This document shows positions 2,826 through 30,522 of a DNA stretch of 30,605 bases, one piece after another. The notes below the pieces were generated by a model. The model was not told the DNA's origin. It worked only from the letters and a program-made list of their open reading frames with translations, and did no database searches. The DNA lies in the IMG/VR virus record IMGVR_UViG_3300028030_000044, positions 1-30,605 of that record. One strand, given 5' to 3'. Each line of letters opens with the position of its first letter. The first letter of the stretch is position 1. The DNA is from a virus. Position numbers and translations under genes: made by a program.

Positions 2826-4511
2826 ATGCCCCGGATTTACGAAAATCGAGAGGTCACGCACCGCGCTGGCGCGCCGGGGGTCACGCTGTCCGCGCCAGGG
2901 CCGCAGGTCAAGCTTCTTGATGAAGTTCGGATCGCCGGGTGCGCGGCGACACCATCGGTGCCGATGGTGTCGCCGTCATGGGCGTTCTCCGGCAACGGGT
3001 GCCGGATGCACTCCTATTTCGACATCTTCTACAATACCTATCATATCACGCCGCTGGCTATTGATCTGGGCACACTGACCGGGGAGACGCAGATCCCGCT
3101 GTCGATCTGGTCGGCGTATCTCACGCCACACACCCTGAACAGCATTAGCATTGTGAATGACACGGGCATTTCGGTTGATCTGGCCACGCCGAAGACTTTT
3201 GCGGGACTTGAGAGCGTGGATACGCACATAACCGTGTCACTGGAAGGCCCGCCGGCCATTGACGCCCATGTGCTGTTCTCCTTTGACAACGGCACGCCTT
3301 CGGTGGCCGTCATGGGGCTTCGGGTGGTGCTGCTGGAAGTTCCGCCGAACTGGGTTCAGTCCGTGACGGATCGGTTGGAATACCGGACGGACATCTTCAA
3401 GGCGCGCGACGGACACGAACAGCGGCGGGCGCTTCGGAAGTATCCGCGCCGCACGATGCGGATGCGGATTCTGGCGATAAAATCCCGCCAACACTATTTC
3501 CTGCGCACGCTGGCCAAAAAATTCGACTTGACGCTGGTCATCCCTGATTATGTCCGGCACGTGCTTACGGCCGCGCCGGTGGCGGCGGCGGACACTACGG
3601 TTGTTTTGGATGTGGCGCCGGAATGGGCTTTGCCCGGGGCGCTGGTGGTTCTTATAGCGCCGGACAAGACGATGCAGTCCGGTGTGCTGGACGCCATGGA
3701 TTCCGGCACTAAGACCGCCACGCTGCACTCGCCTATCGGCAAGGATTTCCCGGCCGGGTCCAAGTTCGCCCTCGGGCTTCCCGGCAAGTTGGCGCGGCAG
3801 ACCCCATTGTCGCCTCGGACGGGCACTGTTCTGGAAGCCACGCTGTCTCTGGCCGTCAACCCCGGTGGGATTAAATGGTGGCCGCGCGCATGGGCGTCGG
3901 AGTTTGATGGGCGCAAGGTGCTGGATGTCAACCCGAATTGGCGCGATACACCGGGCATCCGGTTCCAGACCTTCCGGGAAGATCTGGATTTCGGGCAGGG
4001 CCGGATAAAATCCAACACGCCGGTTGCGTATCCAGAGCGGTTGTTCTCCGCGACATGGACCGAGATCGGCATGGCGAAAGCCAAGGCGCTGGAAGACTTC
4101 TTCGTGGTCCATCGGGGCGCGGATAAGTCGTTCTGGCTGCCGTCCTTCGTGCAGGACTTCATGCCCATGGAAGGGCTGACTGCCGGGCAGCATTTGCTCA
4201 GGATCAAGGGGCAGGAGTTTTATTCGGATTATGTGGACAGCCCCGTGCATAAGGCGCTTCGGATCCGGCTTGCCAATGGCACCTACGTCTTGCAAAAGAT
4301 TACCAGCCTCGTGACGGTGAGCGATCCTGCGGGGGATGATACGCACATCGTTGTCAACGATCCATGGGCAAACGATGTTGCCTTGGCGGACATCGTGACC
4401 TGCCAGTGGCTGTATCTGGCCCGGTTCGCGGGGGATGTGTTCGACATGTCATGGCCGGTCAGGGGTGTTGGCCAGGCCAAGCTGTCATTTTATGCTCTGG
4501 AGGCAGATTGA
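2826..4511 (+). CDS. Large tail-tip/hub-associated protein
   Basis: This is a 561-residue protein with start ATG preceded by AAGGA. The N-terminal 170 residues look beta-rich. A segment near residues 185-205 (YRTDIFKARDGHEQRRALR) resembles the 'G.EQR.AL' motif seen in several phage tail hub proteins. The C-terminal 100 residues include FWLPSFVQDF and end in SFYALEAD. There is no protease or hydrolase signature. The stop codon shares its last base with the start of the DUF2163 gene, which indicates translational coupling. Family membership is inferred from context and the EQR segment. I cannot assign it to a named Pfam family from sequence alone. Confidence 0.6.
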   Translation: MPRIYENREVTHRAGAPGVTLSAPGPQVKLLDEVRIAGCAATPSVPMVSPSWAFSGNGCRMHSYFDIFYNTYHITPLAIDLGTLTGETQIPLSIWSAYLTPHTLNSISIVNDTGISVDLATPKTFAGLESVDTHITVSLEGPPAIDAHVLFSFDNGTPSVAVMGLRVVLLEVPPNWVQSVTDRLEYRTDIFKARDGHEQRRALRKYPRRTMRMRILAIKSRQHYFLRTLAKKFDLTLVIPDYVRHVLTAAPVAAADTTVVLDVAPEWALPGALVVLIAPDKTMQSGVLDAMDSGTKTATLHSPIGKDFPAGSKFALGLPGKLARQTPLSPRTGTVLEATLSLAVNPGGIKWWPRAWASEFDGRKVLDVNPNWRDTPGIRFQTFREDLDFGQGRIKSNTPVAYPERLFSATWTEIGMAKAKALEDFFVVHRGADKSFWLPSFVQDFMPMEGLTAGQHLLRIKGQEFYSDYVDSPVHKALRIRLANGTYVLQKITSLVTVSDPAGDDTHIVVNDPWANDVALADIVTCQWLYLARFAGDVFDMSWPVRGVGQAKLSFYALEAD

Positions 4512-5335
4512 TGTCCTACGATGGTGTGGAATCCAGTCGGCAAGACGGCCTGCCGATAACGCTGTTCCGGTTCGAGATCGGTTCGACGGTCTACTGCTAT
4601 ACCACGGCGGAGGATTCAGTGGACCATGGCGGATTGACCTATCTGCCAATCCCGATCAAATATGACCGGATCGTCGCCAATGTAGGGTCAGACCGCCGCA
4701 GGACCAATGTGAGTATGCACTTCAAAGAGGATTTTGCCCGTCTGTTCTTCGGCCCGCATCCGGTGTTCTGGGCGATTACACTCACCATCGGAGAAGGCCA
4801 CCTTGGGGAATCCGAGTTCATCGAAAGGTTCCATGGCTACATGTCGGGTGCGGTGTTCGCCAAGAATGTGTTTACGGCGTCGTTTGACACCAAGCAGGTT
4901 GAGGCTGCCCGCCCAGGGCTGCGGAGAGTCTATCAGCAGACTTGCCCACACGTCCTTTATGGGGACGCTTGTCAGGCGTCGCGGCCGTCTTTCACGGTTA
5001 CGGCTTCGGTGGCGGGCATCTCAGGGGCGGATGTGACGCTCTCGGCGGGCTGGAACATCCCGCATGACAAGGACCGCTACCTCTACGGGGAACTCCTGTG
5101 GTCGATGCAGCACGGGGTGGCCCGAGCCTCCATTCTTGCCGTGGATGGCGCGCAGGACAGATTGACTTTGAGCGTCGTCCCCGAAGGGCTCACGGTAGGG
5201 GCCAGCGTGACGCTTTCATTGGGCTGTGATAAGGTCTACGGGACATGCCGGGACGTATTCAGCAACCTGCCGCACTTCGGCGGCACGATAACCGAGCCGA
5301 TTGCGAACGGAATGCCTTTTGGAGGGCCATCGTAA
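4511..5335 (+). CDS. DUF2163-like tail assembly protein
   Basis: I chose the ATG at 4511, which overlaps the previous TGA by one base, although the frame stays open further upstream. The resulting 274-residue protein opens with a beta-rich region (LFRFEIGSTVYCYTTAED, then GLTYLPIPIKYDRI) and has a Cys-rich second half, with CPHVLYGDAC near residue 150 and LGCDKVYGTCRDVFSNLPHFGG near residue 240. The paired 'Y.TC...F.N...FGG' ending is typical of the DUF2163/BR0599 phage family, found between tail-tip genes and the cell-wall peptidase or hub in siphoviruses and gene transfer agents. It probably helps build the hub at the tail tip. No NlpC/P60 gene follows directly. The only such hydrolase in the window lies at 12583. 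Confidence 0.8.
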   Translation: MSYDGVESSRQDGLPITLFRFEIGSTVYCYTTAEDSVDHGGLTYLPIPIKYDRIVANVGSDRRRTNVSMHFKEDFARLFFGPHPVFWAITLTIGEGHLGESEFIERFHGYMSGAVFAKNVFTASFDTKQVEAARPGLRRVYQQTCPHVLYGDACQASRPSFTVTASVAGISGADVTLSAGWNIPHDKDRYLYGELLWSMQHGVARASILAVDGAQDRLTLSVVPEGLTVGASVTLSLGCDKVYGTCRDVFSNLPHFGGTITEPIANGMPFGGPS

Positions 5336-13833: not shown

Positions 13834-14426
13834 AGCACACCCCCCAAATCTGTTGCGGTTATCCCGGACTGCCGGATAAGATCATCGGGCAGTTCATCCC
13901 CCCACACGGCCCAGCCGGGGAAGGGACGGCGCGCGAAGAGCTCGACATACGGCCCGGGCACAAGACGCTGAATGCGCCGATGGATTTCTTCCGGTTTCCG
14001 GCTATGCTCCATGCGGGGCGCCATGGCTACTTGCTTCACGTTGCGGGCTATCCGTTTTGGCCGTCCCTTTGTCCCGAGCAGCACGAACTCCGCGTTCTGG
14101 CGGGTCCAGAACCCCATCCCGGTGAACGGAGTCTCCCCGTCCCTGTTCACTTTGATCCACGTGAAGGCCATGGATTTATAGGTGAAGCCCCAAGCCTTCA
14201 TGACCTCGAATGCGTCCGGGAGCATGGCGCCCGTCGCCCACAAGAACAGAGCGCAATCCTTGTCTGCCATGTCGGCCACGGGCAGGGCGCAAATATCCTT
14301 TGTCGGCATCGTGCTATAGTGATTTGACGCGCTCCGTCCAGTCCCTTTCGAGGAGCGGACGCGGAAGTCCCACGGCGGGTCCGCGAGAATTGCGCCATAT
14401 TTGCCCGGGGGGAATGGAATATTCAT
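13830..14426 (-). CDS. MT-A70 family DNA N6-adenine methyltransferase
   Basis: I chose ATG 14426, which forms ATGA with the previous gene and has GGAGGGG upstream; the 198-residue product starts MNIPFPPGKYGAILADPPW. The catalytic DPPW is at 16-19, as expected for the MT-A70 family. Later motifs (LFLWATGAMLPDAFEVMKAWGF, FWTRQNAEFVLLGTKG, KPEEIHRRIQRLVPGPYVELFAR) complete the MT-A70-like fold used by many phage adenine methylases. The likely reaction is SAM-dependent methylation of adenine in DNA. The target site cannot be read from sequence. It lies between the DnaA-domain-IV gene and the GcrA-like gene. Confidence 0.88.
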   Translation of the reverse strand: MNIPFPPGKYGAILADPPWDFRVRSSKGTGRSASNHYSTMPTKDICALPVADMADKDCALFLWATGAMLPDAFEVMKAWGFTYKSMAFTWIKVNRDGETPFTGMGFWTRQNAEFVLLGTKGRPKRIARNVKQVAMAPRMEHSRKPEEIHRRIQRLVPGPYVELFARRPFPGWAVWGDELPDDLIRQSGITATDLGGVL

Positions 14427-15007
14427 GCTGCGCCCCTCCGATGCCGGTTCGCCAGCCACATTCTGAACTCCTCTTGCCGCCCGAGGTCGTAGGCGATTCC
14501 AAGGGCGATTTCACGACCTTCTGGCCGCCGCCACAAAGTGTTGACGGCGTGCAGGATCGTTGTGTGGTGCCGCTTGTAGGCTTTGGCGAGCCTCATGGAG
14601 CTGATACGCAGCGGAGATAGCGCATAGGCCAGCGCCCACGCGGCCCGGCGCGCTTCGACCACCGCTGGAACTCGGCCCATGCCATAGAGATCCTTTTTTG
14701 ATATGCCGGTCTTCTTCGCCACAAGATCCGCGAAGGCGTCTATGCTGGCGGCGGCGGGCGTGGTCCGGCCATTCAGAACAACGAGCCGCCCGCCGCTGGT
14801 CGGCATCCGCCAAAGTGCGATCAGGACCTCGGTGCCCATTTCACCCCGTTCCATCTTGGCCATGTCGTGCTGCAAGCACAACACCGCCGCTTCAAGATGC
14901 CGGATCTTCGACTGTGCGGAAGTTATGGCACGTTGGCTTTCGGAAGCGGCCAGCCATTTCCGCGCCATCTGGCGCTGCCGCCGGTCAGGCTCAAGCATTC
15001 GGTTCAT
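14423..15007 (-). CDS. Protein with DnaA domain IV (DnaA-box-binding) fold
   Basis: I chose ATG 15007 (ATGA overlap, GGGAGGAC upstream), giving 194 residues. Residues 1-60 are helical and charged. Residues 91-158 align with the C-terminal DNA-binding domain of DnaA: FADLVAKKTGISKKDLYG, then VEARRAAWALAYAL, and the signature RHHTTILHA (146-154), which in DnaA reads DHTTVLHA. No AAA+ ATPase motifs (Walker A or B) are present. It could bind DnaA boxes or a phage origin, or compete with host DnaA. The first His of RHHTT replaces the usual Asp, which may change base specificity. A related truncated form occurs in some other alphaproteobacterial elements, as I recall, but this is not checked. Confidence 0.8.
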   Translation of the reverse strand: MNRMLEPDRRQRQMARKWLAASESQRAITSAQSKIRHLEAAVLCLQHDMAKMERGEMGTEVLIALWRMPTSGGRLVVLNGRTTPAAASIDAFADLVAKKTGISKKDLYGMGRVPAVVEARRAAWALAYALSPLRISSMRLAKAYKRHHTTILHAVNTLWRRPEGREIALGIAYDLGRQEEFRMWLANRHRRGAA

Positions 15008-15309
15008 GTGTAGTCCTCCCACCAGCGGTCTTTTATGAGGGCCTCGCTGTCTTTCCGGCGCAGCAGGTATGTCCGGGCCTGCGGACGCGACTCGCGTCTC
15101 CTGCCCCTGTTTCCGGCTGCTGGGGGCGCAAAAGAGAGCCATGCCATACCCGCCGCCAGTCCGAGAAGCGCAAAAGTCACGCTGAACGCCACCCATGCCT
15201 GGCTGTCGAACCGTCCGTCCGGTCCGGTAGCCAGCAAAGCCATGACGGTTCCGGTGGACCCGGCGGCGAAGGACAAGACCAGCGCAAGAAATAGTTGGAA
15301 AATCCTCAC
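15004..15309 (-). CDS. Small membrane protein with two transmembrane helices
   Basis: The start is GTG 15309 (GTGA overlap with the GapR-like gene), with GGAGGAC upstream. The product has 101 residues. Two hydrophobic segments lie at about 4-26 ([20 protein letters not shown]) and 39-61 ([21 protein letters not shown]). A basic tail follows ([19 protein letters not shown]). No family is recognised. It is nested between regulators and a methylase rather than with the lysis genes, so it is not a clear holin. A role in superinfection exclusion or membrane anchoring is possible but unsupported. Confidence 0.65.
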
Positions 15310-15590
15310 AGCAAGTCCTCCGATTCCGTGGCATTGGCCGAGGGGACCATGCCGAGCGCGTGCATATACAGATCGAGGATGGCTTGTTCCTCTTCCACCT
15401 CTTCCCGGTCGCGTTTTCGCTGGGCGATCAGCTTGCGCAGCACCTTGACCTCGAAGCCTTGCCCCTTTGCTTCCGCATAGACCTCCTTGATGTCAGCGGC
15501 GATGGCCGCTTTTTCCTCTTCCAGATTTTCGATACGTTCGACCACTTTCGCCAGCGCGGGGGCGATATTGCTTATTCGGGACTCAGTCAT
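15306..15590 (-). CDS. gapR: GapR/DUF2312 family nucleoid-associated protein
   Basis: The protein has 94 residues. The core [42 protein letters not shown] and [13 protein letters not shown] are almost the textbook DUF2312 signature, in the usual order and at near-usual length. In Caulobacter, GapR binds overtwisted DNA ahead of replication and transcription forks and affects chromosome replication and the cell cycle; related proteins are common in Alphaproteobacteria. Here it is coupled by ATGA-type junctions to both neighbours and stands two genes upstream of the DnaA-domain-IV gene. A phage copy may aid phage DNA topology or interfere with the host protein. Confidence 0.9.
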
Positions 15591-26856: not shown

Positions 26857-26891
26857 CTCTTTGTCTCCCTGTTGAGGTATTCGCTTTCGGC

Positions 26892-26923
26892 TTTATGCCA
26901 TATAGGTCTTAACAAATAGTTAA
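26892..26923 (-). promoter_or_regulatory. Leftward promoter with CtrA-type box
   Basis: On the minus strand TTAA-CTATTTG-TTAA (26923-26909) is followed after 11 bases by CATAAA (26897-26892). The box is a perfect TTAA-N7-TTAA, the consensus I know for CtrA in Caulobacter. The seven-base spacer is identical to that of the rightward promoter, so the two promoters are inverted copies. Confidence 0.75.
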
Positions 26924-27002
26924 TAATTTTACCAACATTTTATCCATTTTTGATTTTCTCTATCGGGCATGGCGCGGCGCGGCCCGGCGTGGCGTGGTCT
27001 GG

Positions 27003-27096
27003 AGTCCCAATGGCGTCCCCAATGCGGCCGCCGCCGAAGAGTCCCAATGGGCTCCGCAATGCGGCCGCCTTATATAGACAGTCCCGGCAATGCGAA
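27003..27096. repeat. 33-base repeat family, locus 2
   Basis: Units begin at 27003 (AGTCCCAATGG) and 27040, with the cores CCCAATGG and CAATGCGGCCGCC, followed by TATAGAC and GGCAATGCG. Bases 27040-27096 match 23634-23690 with six differences. The two loci flank the small-gene minus operon on either side. Confidence 0.85.
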
Positions 27097-27171
27097 GCGC
27101 CCGGCGCGAGGTTTTGCACGCACCCATGGCGCGCCGCACTGGCGCGTTTTTCCGCCATCCGTTTTCCGGCG

Positions 27172-27361
27172 TTAACCATGTTCGTTTACCATATTCTTTT
27201 ACCCAACGTTAACCATGCGGACGCGACGCGTTAACCATGTCCGTTAACCCAATGTTAACCATACGGAATCCTGCTACGGATTCCGGCAATGGCATTTGCG
27301 GCGCGTCCTGGCGCGATTGTCAAGCGAATTACCGCGACATGCTTAACCCGATATTAACCAT
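27172..27361 (+). promoter_or_regulatory. Array of CtrA half-sites and full sites
   Basis: TTAACCAT occurs exactly at 27172, 27209, 27231, 27255 and 27354, all on the plus strand, with variants TTTACCAT (27185), TTAACCCA (27244) and TTAACCCG (27343). Pairs at 27244-27258 and 27343-27357 form perfect TTAA-N7-TTAA. TTTA-N7-TTAA occurs at 27198-27212. The spacing between starts is repeatedly 11 or 13 bases, about one DNA turn, which favours cooperative binding on one face. Confidence 0.8.
27264..27285. repeat. 8-base inverted repeat carrying two GANTC sites
   Basis: CGGAATCC (27264-27271) and GGATTCCG (27278-27285) are complementary with a six-base loop. Each arm contains a GANTC methylation site (GAATC and GATTC). 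It stands between two groups of CtrA sites. Confidence 0.75.
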
Positions 27362-27381
27362 GTTTCCAGCTTGCGCGCGTG

Positions 27382-27414
27382 TTAACTATTTGTTAATAAT
27401 TCTATATGTATAAA
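27382..27414 (+). promoter_or_regulatory. Rightward promoter with CtrA-type box
   Basis: TTAA-CTATTTG-TTAA (27382-27396) then, after 12 bases, TATAAA (27409-27414), preceded by TG as in an extended -10. The box overlaps the -35 position, as at CtrA-activated promoters. Predicted transcription starts near 27421, with an 80-base leader before the gene at 27501 that holds three GANTC sites (27434, 27464, 27490). Confidence 0.75.
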
Positions 27415-27500
27415 TCCAATAGTGAATAGACGCGAGTCAATCGCGCGAGCCGCCGTTCTGGCGGAATCTCAAACTACAACAGGACACAGGAGTCAAAATC

Positions 27501-29270
27501 ATGAAAACAGTTTTTTCAAACGCCGAATTGGCGCACGTATGGGCGCATCAGGGGCAGGAATACGGGCGCAACGCGCGCGAATCTCTCCATTTCAGCGGGC
27601 CGGAGCTTTTCAGTTATCGGACTCTCATTGGAATGTTGCATGGGGGGCGCGCCTATCTGACAGATACCACTTATTCAATCACCACCACGTCGCACATGGG
27701 CGACTCGCGCCAGGCTGTGTCGCACATGCCGCAAGTCTATGTGCCCGATCTGCACAACCTGTTGCGCGATCCGGAAAAATGGGCGCGCGAAAATTGTGAT
27801 TATGCCCTGGACCTGGCGGGCGGCGCGACGGGGAAATTGGCCGTCAAATCGCTGATTCAGGCATGGGCGCGCACAAACAAACAATGGCGCGATCTGGTCA
27901 ATATCGCCCGCCGCGCCCGCGCGGATCGGAGCGCGGCGGTCAGGGCGGCGCGGCGGCGCGAATTTGATAAAATCCGCGCCGAATTGGCCGAATTGACGTC
28001 CAGTGCGGACGCCGATTTTGCCCCTCGCGATGCTCTGGCGCTCACTGTCCGGGAATGGAACCGTGCGCGCCCGTATTGGCGGCGCGGGCGCATGAATTGG
28101 CTTGACCTGCAATATGAGGCGGAAAAGCTGGCGGAAAGGGAGATGTCTGCTACGAGTCGCGCGCGTGGACTCCGGGCAAAGGCGCGCCGCCTGATCCGCG
28201 AGGGATATGCGCCCGCCCGGCGCTACTCGGACTCCTTTGCGCGCCGTGTCAATGGGGCGATCCGCGAAATGGATCAGATTGCGCGCCGCCGCGCCCGCGC
28301 CTTTGAGGCCGTGGCGCGCTATGCACGTTACGCGCAATATTGCGATACCATGCGCGCCTGGCGCGCCGCGCCGCGATCATGGACACTGAAGGACCTGGAT
28401 TTTTCGCGCCTGGCCGATCTTGAACGCAAATTGCGCACGGCGCGCATGGGCGGCGCACGCAACGCATGGCGCATCCTGGAGGTTCGAGAGGGAATCCGGC
28501 GCGCCTATGACGCCGCCGAATATTACGAATATGAGGCCATGCGCGCGGCGCACCATGTTGAAGGCATGGCCGCCATTGATCCGGATTCATTGCGCTATGG
28601 CGCTACTACGCCGGGCGGAGTTATGGCGGCCGCGCATGGCGCGGAATGGCGTCTGACTCGCCTGGAGACATGGCCGGATGGATTGATTCCGTGCTGGATT
28701 GATCCTGCCATTGTAGCGCGCGCCCGCGCCGTATGGGACAAGGCGGCGGCGCTTGCCCGCCGGGCGCGCATGGCGGAAAAAGCGCAAGAAGCCATGCGTG
28801 ACGCCGAATACAGGGCGGCGCAAGAGATCGCCCGCATTGAGCGCCTTATGCGGCATGAGGCATTTGCCGCCGCATATCCCGATTGGCAGGCATGGGCGGC
28901 GGGATACGCGCGCGACGAGTCATTGGCGCATGATTGCGCGTATGTCGCGCGTGATCTGCCTGGCGCGCGCGATGGAGTCTACGCCGTCTATGCGCGCGGA
29001 AATGAGGTCATCACGTCCGGCGGCGCGCACGCGCCTTTGAAAGCCGCTGTCATGGCATGGCGCAAGGCCGAATGGTGCGCCGATAATAGCCGCGAATGGC
29101 GGCGCAATGGCGAGAGACTCAAGGCTGGATTCTATGAGATTGACCATATTTCCGCCGATGGAACTATCCGCGCCGGATGTCATTTGATCCCGCTCCATGC
29201 CATGCGCACCCTGGCAGATCACCTGAGCTTGACGCGCGGCGCGCCCGCACCGAATAGCGCCGCCGCCTGA
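27501..29270 (+). CDS. Large uncharacterised phage protein (589 residues)
   Basis: The start ATG has GGAGTCAAAATC upstream. The N-terminus (MKTVFSNAELAHVWAHQGQEYGRN, then GPELFSYRTLIGML) resembles the opening of a widespread but unnamed phage protein family, which I recall only from its sequence pattern and cannot verify here. The rest is extremely Arg/Ala-rich (DRSAAVRAARRREFDKI, ARGLRAKARRLIREG) with long predicted helices. The coding sequence is dense in GCGC words and Arg codons CGC, unlike the left arm. The function is unknown. It is the first gene after the CtrA-box promoter, so it may be expressed in a cell-cycle-dependent way. Confidence 0.7.
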   Translation: MKTVFSNAELAHVWAHQGQEYGRNARESLHFSGPELFSYRTLIGMLHGGRAYLTDTTYSITTTSHMGDSRQAVSHMPQVYVPDLHNLLRDPEKWARENCDYALDLAGGATGKLAVKSLIQAWARTNKQWRDLVNIARRARADRSAAVRAARRREFDKIRAELAELTSSADADFAPRDALALTVREWNRARPYWRRGRMNWLDLQYEAEKLAEREMSATSRARGLRAKARRLIREGYAPARRYSDSFARRVNGAIREMDQIARRRARAFEAVARYARYAQYCDTMRAWRAAPRSWTLKDLDFSRLADLERKLRTARMGGARNAWRILEVREGIRRAYDAAEYYEYEAMRAAHHVEGMAAIDPDSLRYGATTPGGVMAAAHGAEWRLTRLETWPDGLIPCWIDPAIVARARAVWDKAAALARRARMAEKAQEAMRDAEYRAAQEIARIERLMRHEAFAAAYPDWQAWAAGYARDESLAHDCAYVARDLPGARDGVYAVYARGNEVITSGGAHAPLKAAVMAWRKAEWCADNSREWRRNGERLKAGFYEIDHISADGTIRAGCHLIPLHAMRTLADHLSLTRGAPAPNSAAA

Positions 29271-29333: not shown

Positions 29334-29365
29334 TTAACGGTTTATTAGGATTTTGGCGCTATAAC
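29334..29365 (+). promoter_or_regulatory. Promoter with near-perfect CtrA-type box
   Basis: TTAA-CGGTTTA-TTAG (29334-29348), 11 bases, then TATAAC (29360-29365), followed directly by GGAGTC. The element shares its order and spacing with 29780-29811. It leads to the gene at 29398, whose start is reached after a second GGAGTC at 29386-29391. Confidence 0.65.
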
Positions 29366-29397
29366 GGAGTCAGGATCAATCAAAAGGAGTCACTATC

Positions 29398-29712
29398 ATG
29401 TTTTTTGTTCTGGAAAATGAACGCGGATTTTGTAATACGGCGCGCGCTACGGCGTGGGAAACGCGCGAGGCGGCGGAAAATTACGCCGCCGATCTGAGCC
29501 GGAAATACGAAATCACGCGCGACACGCGGCGGGTAACATTGCATTTGCGCTATTGGATTCCTGACAAAAATCGAATCAATAAACCACGCCCCTCCATGCG
29601 CGATGAAGCCTGGCGTATCGTCAATCACGGTAATGTCGCCGTGCCTGAATATATAGGCGAAATCATGGTTAGCGACTCACCAACCCATCAGCGCCTCTAT
29701 AGCGGCAAATAA
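29398..29712 (+). CDS. Uncharacterised 104-residue protein
   Basis: The start ATG 29398 has GGAGTCACTATC upstream. The protein opens with MFFVLENERGFCNTARATA and contains a Thr/Arg-rich beta part (DTRRVTLHLRYWIPD). It has no recognised domain. Codon use favours CGC and GCG, like its neighbours. Function unknown. Confidence 0.65.
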   Translation: MFFVLENERGFCNTARATAWETREAAENYAADLSRKYEITRDTRRVTLHLRYWIPDKNRINKPRPSMRDEAWRIVNHGNVAVPEYIGEIMVSDSPTHQRLYSGK

Positions 29713-29779: not shown

Positions 29780-29811
29780 TTAACGATTCTTTAACGTTTC
29801 ACGCGTATAAC
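29780..29811 (+). promoter_or_regulatory. Promoter with perfect CtrA-type box containing a GANTC site
   Basis: TTAA-CGATTCT-TTAA (29780-29794), 11 bases, then TATAAC (29806-29811) and GGAGTCAGG. The box is perfect, and its seven-base spacer carries GATTC, a site for GANTC methylation. It leads to the gene at 29847 behind a second GGGAGTC. Confidence 0.72.
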
Positions 29812-29846
29812 GGAGTCAGGATAAATCAAACACGGGAGTCAAAATC

Positions 29847-30131
29847 ATGAACAATCGTCTTGCAACAGCTGCAAACACGCTGAAAAATCGCGCGCACGTG
29901 TTTAATCGCGTGTCCGCACTGCCGGAAAAAGAGCACCTCGCAATCTATGGCGCGTGCGAATCCATCCGCCTTGCGGCCATGGACGCGGACAGAGAATCCA
30001 ACGTGAATCGGATTGTTTCCGCCCTGGACGTGATCCGCGCCCATATGTGCGCGCCGCATGTTGCGCGCGTCATGGCGGCGGCCGCGGACGTGTTGAATTG
30101 CGTCATGTATGAGATGGAATCCGCCGCATGA
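29847..30131 (+). CDS. Uncharacterised 94-residue helical protein
   Basis: The start ATG 29847 has GGGAGTCAAAATC upstream. Predicted helical throughout (KNRAHVFNRVSALPEKEHL, RESNVNRIVSALDVIRAHM). There are several Ala-rich stretches and no recognised motif. Coupled by ATGA to a 52-residue gene. Function unknown. Confidence 0.65.
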   Translation: MNNRLATAANTLKNRAHVFNRVSALPEKEHLAIYGACESIRLAAMDADRESNVNRIVSALDVIRAHMCAPHVARVMAAAADVLNCVMYEMESAA

Positions 30132-30343: not shown

Positions 30344-30371
30344 TTTCTATGTCCGCCCCATGGCATGGTCT

Positions 30372-30522
30372 GGCATGGCCTCATGGCCTCATGGCCCCAT
30401 GGCCCCATGGCCTCACAGCCTCATGGCTTCATGGCCCCTGGCCTGACTGCCCATGTCCTCATGGCCCCAGTGCCCCATGGCCTCATGGCCCCAGTGCCCC
30501 ATGGCCTCATGGCCTCACAGCC
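30372..30522. repeat. Degenerate octamer tandem repeat (GGCCYCAT)
   Basis: About 18 units of eight bases, consensus GGCCTCAT or GGCCCCAT, with single-base variants such as CTCACAGC and CCCAGTGC. The open frame across it is low-complexity (PHGLMAP, MASQPHG) and has no support as a gene. Beyond it (30523-30605) I see only a TATAGT and a small CGCCG/CGGCG hairpin near 30582. Confidence 0.8.

Follow-up and report, generated by a model that had tools for sequence, protein, structure and literature searches.

The divergent intergenic gap near one end of a 30.6-kb IMG/VR virus record (the window, i.e., the whole stretch of DNA that was analysed) is likely a regulatory region read by CtrA of the host, which would activate four phage promoters in step with the cell cycle. 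CtrA arrays in alphaproteobacterial phages were described in 2022 together with EMSA and lacZ data, and CtrA was found to bind and regulate promoters of three other phages (Mascolo et al., PMC9437464); control of this kind is therefore known, and the phage studied here is probably a new case of it. Infection by Jorvik requires host CtrA (PMC10589892).

The sequences TTAA-N7-TTAA and TTAACCAT, which an earlier note on this DNA took for CtrA sites, correspond to the full site and the half-site published for CtrA, respectively (PMC3692519; PMC6180460). All five perfect full sites and all five half-sites that it had reported are present (Table 1), the half-sites exclusively on the + strand, and no perfect full site was found in the window outside this arm. 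The claim that chance would produce less than one full site per 30 kb also held, with 0.11 expected and five observed in the window. None of 100 dinucleotide shuffles of the window reached five matches to the full-site consensus, and none reached five half-sites (0.41 expected). When the gap alone, which is richer in AT than the window, was shuffled (26857–27500), its four full sites compared with a mean of 0.027 and a maximum of two in 10,000 shuffles, and its five half-sites with a mean of 0.034. Five TTAA pairs in the window were separated by seven bases, while every other spacer up to 56 bases occurred at most three times, and each of the other A/T tetramer dyads with a seven-base spacer was found at most twice. 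Two one-mismatch sites had been missed: TTAACGGTTTATTAG at 29334–29348, which has the same promoter layout as the perfect sites, and another at 27198–27212. At up to one mismatch the window contains seven sites, all intergenic, five of them within one gap. The normalised positional entropy (H) of these seven sites is 0.66, as calculated with a consensus instead of the published matrix and for a contig that is a fragment. Low positional entropy genomes (LPEGs) were defined by H < 0.75, more than five CtrA sites, and a complete genome; in LPEG phages, CtrA sites are mostly intergenic and are located in a gap or a terminal repeat (Mascolo 2022, PMC9437464).

Table 1. Features of the divergent gap, the adjoining transcription units, and selected genes of the leftward block (window coordinates).
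Feature	Position	Strand	Comment
DnaA domain IV-type HTH protein, leftward block	14423..15334	-	true start probably inside called ORF
GapR homologue, leftward block	15306..15590	-	PF10073, E=1.7e-29
First gene of leftward block, 219 aa	26197..26856	-	
Divergent intergenic gap with array	26857..27500	.	644 bp, 51.6% GC
Predicted -10 CATAAA, leftward promoter	26892..26897	-	11 bases after site 26909-26923
Full CtrA-type site TTAACTATTTGTTAA	26909..26923	-	-35 position, leftward promoter
TTAACCAT half-site	27172..27179	+	kept in relative G001
39-nt repeat, copy 1 (three half-site-like units)	27183..27221	+	contains near-full site 27198-27212, TTAACCAT at 27209
39-nt repeat, copy 2 (82%)	27229..27267	+	contains TTAACCAT at 27231 and 27255, full site 27244-27258
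Full CtrA-type site	27343..27357	+	upstream of rightward promoter, overlaps TTAACCAT at 27354
Full CtrA-type site	27382..27396	+	-35 position, rightward promoter; inverted copy of 26909-26923
Predicted -10 TATAAA, rightward promoter	27409..27414	+	12 bases after site 27382-27396
589-aa gene, C-terminal part phrog_7247	27501..29270	+	common to DELTA_7, phiCbK gp008
One-mismatch CtrA-type site TTAACGGTTTATTAG	29334..29348	+	11 bases before TATAAC at 29360-29365
104-aa ORF	29398..29712	+	behind 29334 promoter
Full CtrA-type site	29780..29794	+	11 bases before TATAAC at 29806-29811
94-aa ORF	29847..30131	+	behind 29780 promoter

The two outermost sites of the gap had been described as inverted copies, each placed shortly before a −10 element, and this is the case: both are the 15-mer TTAACTATTTGTTAA, followed on its own strand by CATAAA or TATAAA. 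The module TTAA-N7-TTA(A/G)-N11/12-(T/C)ATAA(A/C) has exactly four matches (26923 on the − strand; 27382, 29334, and 29780 on the + strand), compared with a Markov expectation of 0.0002, which somewhat overstates the surprise, because the pattern was fixed after the sites had been seen. The module heads four transcription units, the one at 29334 being absent from the earlier note. Hexamers of the form (T/C)ATAA(A/C) occur only four times in the three intergenic stretches (~900 bp, both strands), in each case at the module offset. With transcription starts predicted 6–7 bases after the predicted −10 elements, the first base of each site lies at −38 or −39, which places a full site (with one mismatch in one of the four) in the −35 region of every promoter. 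No TTAA overlaps any of the four predicted −10 elements, i.e., the layout typical of CtrA-repressed promoters is absent. No canonical σ70 (TTGACA) promoter for these units was found in the arm; a σ70 scan of the whole arm produced a single match (27399–27426, − strand), fewer than the shuffle mean of 2.8.

Further phages with the module were sought by scanning the collection for TTAA-N7-TTAA-N10-13-TATAANNGAGTC. The nine matches, about the number expected by chance, all came from unrelated contigs of high AT content, some of which were near-identical to one another, and were rejected. All three rightward genes share GGAGTCA(A/C)(A/T)ATCATG at their start regions (27489–27503, 29386–29400, and 29835–29849), and AGGAGTCAAAATCATG is identical in the relative G001 (see below) before the homologue of the 589-aa gene. 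The Shine-Dalgarno sequence in the shared start regions overlaps a GANTC (CcrM) site; GANTC sites are not avoided (141 compared with 111 expected).

In Caulobacter, full CtrA sites near −35 activate transcription and half-sites over −10 repress it, and the CtrA site of ctrA P2 is at −39 (PMC4287350). Since none of the four phage promoters has a TTGACA-type −35 element, phosphorylated CtrA probably stands in for it and recruits RNA polymerase, acting from one site (5′ end at ca. −38/−39) at each of the promoters of the leftward block, the 589-aa gene, and the two units that follow. The inner full sites and TTAACCAT half-sites, which lie nearer the rightward promoter, would probably be bound cooperatively and affect mainly that promoter, delaying or sharpening its response, as do the upstream sites at Caulobacter pilA, where extra CtrA sites repress, delay, and sensitise (PMC11264516). 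The pilA promoter likewise combines one CtrA site at −35 with further upstream CtrA sites; unlike the promoters of the window, it serves a host gene, and its upstream sites are degenerate and have six-base spacers. The phage genes would fire at high CtrA~P, at the late stage of the host cell cycle at which pili and flagella are produced. For this phage we infer that CtrA binds and that it activates rather than represses, and the same applies to the timing and to the role given to the inner array.

The sign of the regulation cannot be taken for granted, since CtrA represses DELTA_120 of Brevundimonas phage vB_BsubS-Delta (PMC9437464), which has a similarly placed array. If CtrA mainly repressed here as well, the array would coat the gap, and the divergent promoters would be off at high CtrA~P (in the swarmer cell) and released upon CtrA clearance, a scheme already proposed for Delta; a repressive complex could assemble on the dense inner sites, and it is by repression that extra upstream sites act at pilA. 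We consider this unlikely, because the promoter-proximal sites of all four promoters are at −38/−39, a position that activates in Caulobacter, and not over −10, and because the promoters at 29334 and 29780 have one site each and no array.

One relative was found in IMG/VR, IMGVR_UViG_3300028400_000029 (G001, 26 kb), which shares synteny with most of the window (30–90% protein identity). It was found through proteins other than the 589-aa and 219-aa ones, which as sole queries retrieved nothing from IMG/VR. Both divergent promoters of G001 have a CtrA-type site, TTAATAAATTGTTAA-N11-TAGCAA and TTAATCATTTGTTAG-N11-TATCTG, with weak −10 hexamers, and a GGCGTTAACCAT-N4-GTTTACCA element is kept in the gap. 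The inner half-sites are largely different, a turnover matching the one reported for phiCbK terminal repeats (Mascolo et al., PMC9437464). TTAA columns are 75% identical between the window and G001, compared with 54% for the remainder (circular-shift P about 0.03), which points with moderate strength to their conservation. The gap DNA had no blastn match among deposited phages. Examined for conserved RNA, the gap matched nothing in Rfam and showed no unusual folding, and when its reading frames were compared with those of G001, no clean signal of a small conserved coding ORF emerged. The gap also contains two 31-nt direct repeats (27002–27032 and 27039–27069; GAGTCCCAATG...CAATGCGGCCGCC) that are 90% identical and have related counterparts in the gap of G001; these repeats are perhaps sites of another regulator or part of an origin.

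The leftward block begins with the 219-aa gene and includes nucleotide metabolism genes and two DNA methyltransferases, followed by the GapR homologue and the DnaA-domain-IV-like protein; the rightward arm has the 589-aa gene followed by two small ORFs. The GapR homologue suggests an alphaproteobacterial and hence probably CtrA-bearing host, and we consider such a host likely. Caulobacter was the only match to the GapR family among 14 control genomes, the phage GapR as query retrieved 65 genome loci, all of them with alphaproteobacterial or Pseudomonadota names, and GapR relatives were found in 127 phage records, most of these phages being recorded from alphaproteobacteria. The latter number contrasts with a 2025 paper on Erythrobacter phages, where R34L1 and R34L2 (Casjensviridae) carry GapR and their protein is called the first in a phage (PMC12185513). 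No prophage or isolate relative that would name the host was found. The DnaA domain IV-type protein adjoins GapR and is 39% identical to its G001 relative. A possible homology to GafA, a CtrA-controlled gene-transfer-agent activator with a DnaA-like domain, gained no support from a tblastn search, which returned no relative among phages.

The reading of the earlier note, control of both divergent promoters by host CtrA, is well supported by the motifs, the activating position, GapR, and the sites kept in G001. The sites might instead serve a phage-encoded regulator, either a CtrA-like protein or a repressor, with host CtrA uninvolved or competing. Roseophage RDJL-Phi1 encodes a CtrA homologue without a receiver domain (PMC6363796), and repeated-operator arrays are typical of repressors. 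The window has the marks of a fragment (tail and metabolism genes are present; no terminase, portal, or capsid genes were found in it), so a regulator gene may sit elsewhere. Nevertheless, CtrA-like and repressor domains were absent among the annotated window proteins scanned, and the motif, the spacer, and the −35 placement match host CtrA, making a phage regulator very improbable. Still less probable, in our estimate, is that the array belongs to a replication origin at which CtrA sites gate initiation, as at Caulobacter Cori. In favour of an origin are the conserved direct repeats in the gap and the phage genes for GapR and a DnaA-domain-IV-like protein. Against it, every promoter-proximal site is paired with a −10 element at a fixed distance, two of these sites are outside the gap, and no conserved DnaA-box cluster was seen in the gap by eye.

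The best-scoring tail relatives that were looked up belong mostly to Casjensviridae, at about 25–32% identity. The consecutive tail genes at 2826–4511 and 4364–5335 overlap as called by ~150 bases in different frames; the second perhaps starts further in, although G001 is similar across the overlap. A low-complexity repeat of CATGGCC-type units (30360–30520) lies near the contig end.

The proposed control by host CtrA can be compared with what is known of other phages. The closest are the LPEG phages with CtrA arrays, above all Delta. As in the window, most full and half sites of Delta cluster where a leftward block and a rightward arm diverge, a phrog_7247-type gene (DELTA_7) is located just downstream of this gap, and homologous tail genes follow the same order. 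The Delta sites are denser, however, and none was seen 11–12 bases from a good −10; the promoter tested in Delta is repressed, whereas the window has four promoters with one site each at −38/−39. Many small genes of phiCbK-like Caulobacter phages (Dolichocephalovirinae) are preceded by a site, 10–11 bases, and a −10-like element; the phrog_7247-type gene gp008 is among them, and CtrA activates the phiCbK-group promoters gp005 and gp018 (PMC9437464). Unlike those of the window, these sites are in terminal repeats of a far larger, unrelated genome, and the −10 element is CTAGGGT-like, not TATAA. Sphingomonas phage vB_StuS_MMDA13, compared by its description and assigned to a different phage cluster, has a divergent gap of ~1 kb in which 12-bp repeats, each with TTAACCAT at its end, overlap CtrA sites (PMC9437464). 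Among control phages of the same broad group, no full site was found in phiAxp-2, AchV4, Phobos, or AhaSv, and in related Casjensviridae of non-alphaproteobacterial hosts the homologous gap is free of sites (host labels are as deposited, e.g., ‘Synechococcus’ for S-ESS1).

DELTA_7 and its Brevundimonas relatives, phiCbK gp008, and ORF_8 of Erythrobacter phage R16L all have the domain that forms the C-terminal part of the 589-aa protein (phrog_7247); it also occurs in other terminal-repeat genes of phiCbK-like phages. In phiCbK, GTAACCTTTTGTTAA is found 90 bp upstream of the gp008 start and is followed by CTAGGGT. In Erythrobacter phages vB_EliS-R16L and R22L, a 557-aa homologue, matching at both end domains, immediately follows a divergent gap that contains 10 TTAA, two TTAACCAT, and one near-full site. 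Their array differs from that of the window in resembling the TTAACCTTAATAA string of Delta and in having no perfect full site, and ~160 N stand in the gap. TTAA counts for the gap that precedes the homologous gene were 11 in the window, 6 in G001, 10 in R16L, and 27 in Leszy, compared with 0 in AhaSv, 3 in phiAxp-2, and 1 in S-ESS1 (1.3 kb upstream). RBC57 has ten near-sites in 8.2 kb, compared with 0.5 expected. Rhizobium phage RHEph01 has the phrog_7247 gene and no sites, and the link is therefore not universal.

An apparently unreported TTAA-rich, Delta-like array lies at 2170–2300 of the Erythrobacter phage record PQ394075.1, in a divergent gap that also has a run of GTCGTCACAGAGGGG repeats, and ~160 N stand just beside the array in the deposited record; the Erythrobacter phage paper mentions neither CtrA nor Delta-like gap units (PMC12185513). 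The 589-aa protein also has a widespread N-terminal domain, which was rejected as the link to CtrA, most relatives of this domain being in AT-rich contigs without an array. A single-sequence AlphaFold model of the C-terminal domain had a mean pLDDT of 50, too low for use.

Mascolo et al. treat the lineages with arrays as independent, mention neither gp008 nor DELTA_7 in the main text, and assign no function there to the genes tested (PMC9437464). In the strongest reading, the phrog_7247 family would have come to lie behind host-CtrA promoters in at least four alphaproteobacterial phage lineages (window/G001, Delta-like, phiCbK-like, and R16L-like), the same gap being site-free in Casjensviridae recorded from other hosts. 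The family might then supply the effector or decision factor shared by CtrA-timed infections, and the arrays would be at least partly related in origin; we regard this as possible, though doubtful. The association may have arisen by recruitment on several occasions or by the transfer of a module, or may simply mean that the gene tends to adjoin the main promoter region.

With these results, control by host CtrA probably extends to a new lineage of uncultivated phages. The promoter grammar is unusually clean, with the same 15-mer at both divergent promoters, the same −10 distance, and four promoters in all, so that activation and repression could be told apart directly in Caulobacter by means of short DNA fragments. 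The occurrence of a phrog_7247-type gene beside CtrA sites is a previously unreported link between the cases, and its presence next to the arrays of several lineages makes this gene a concrete candidate for a CtrA-timed phage gene.
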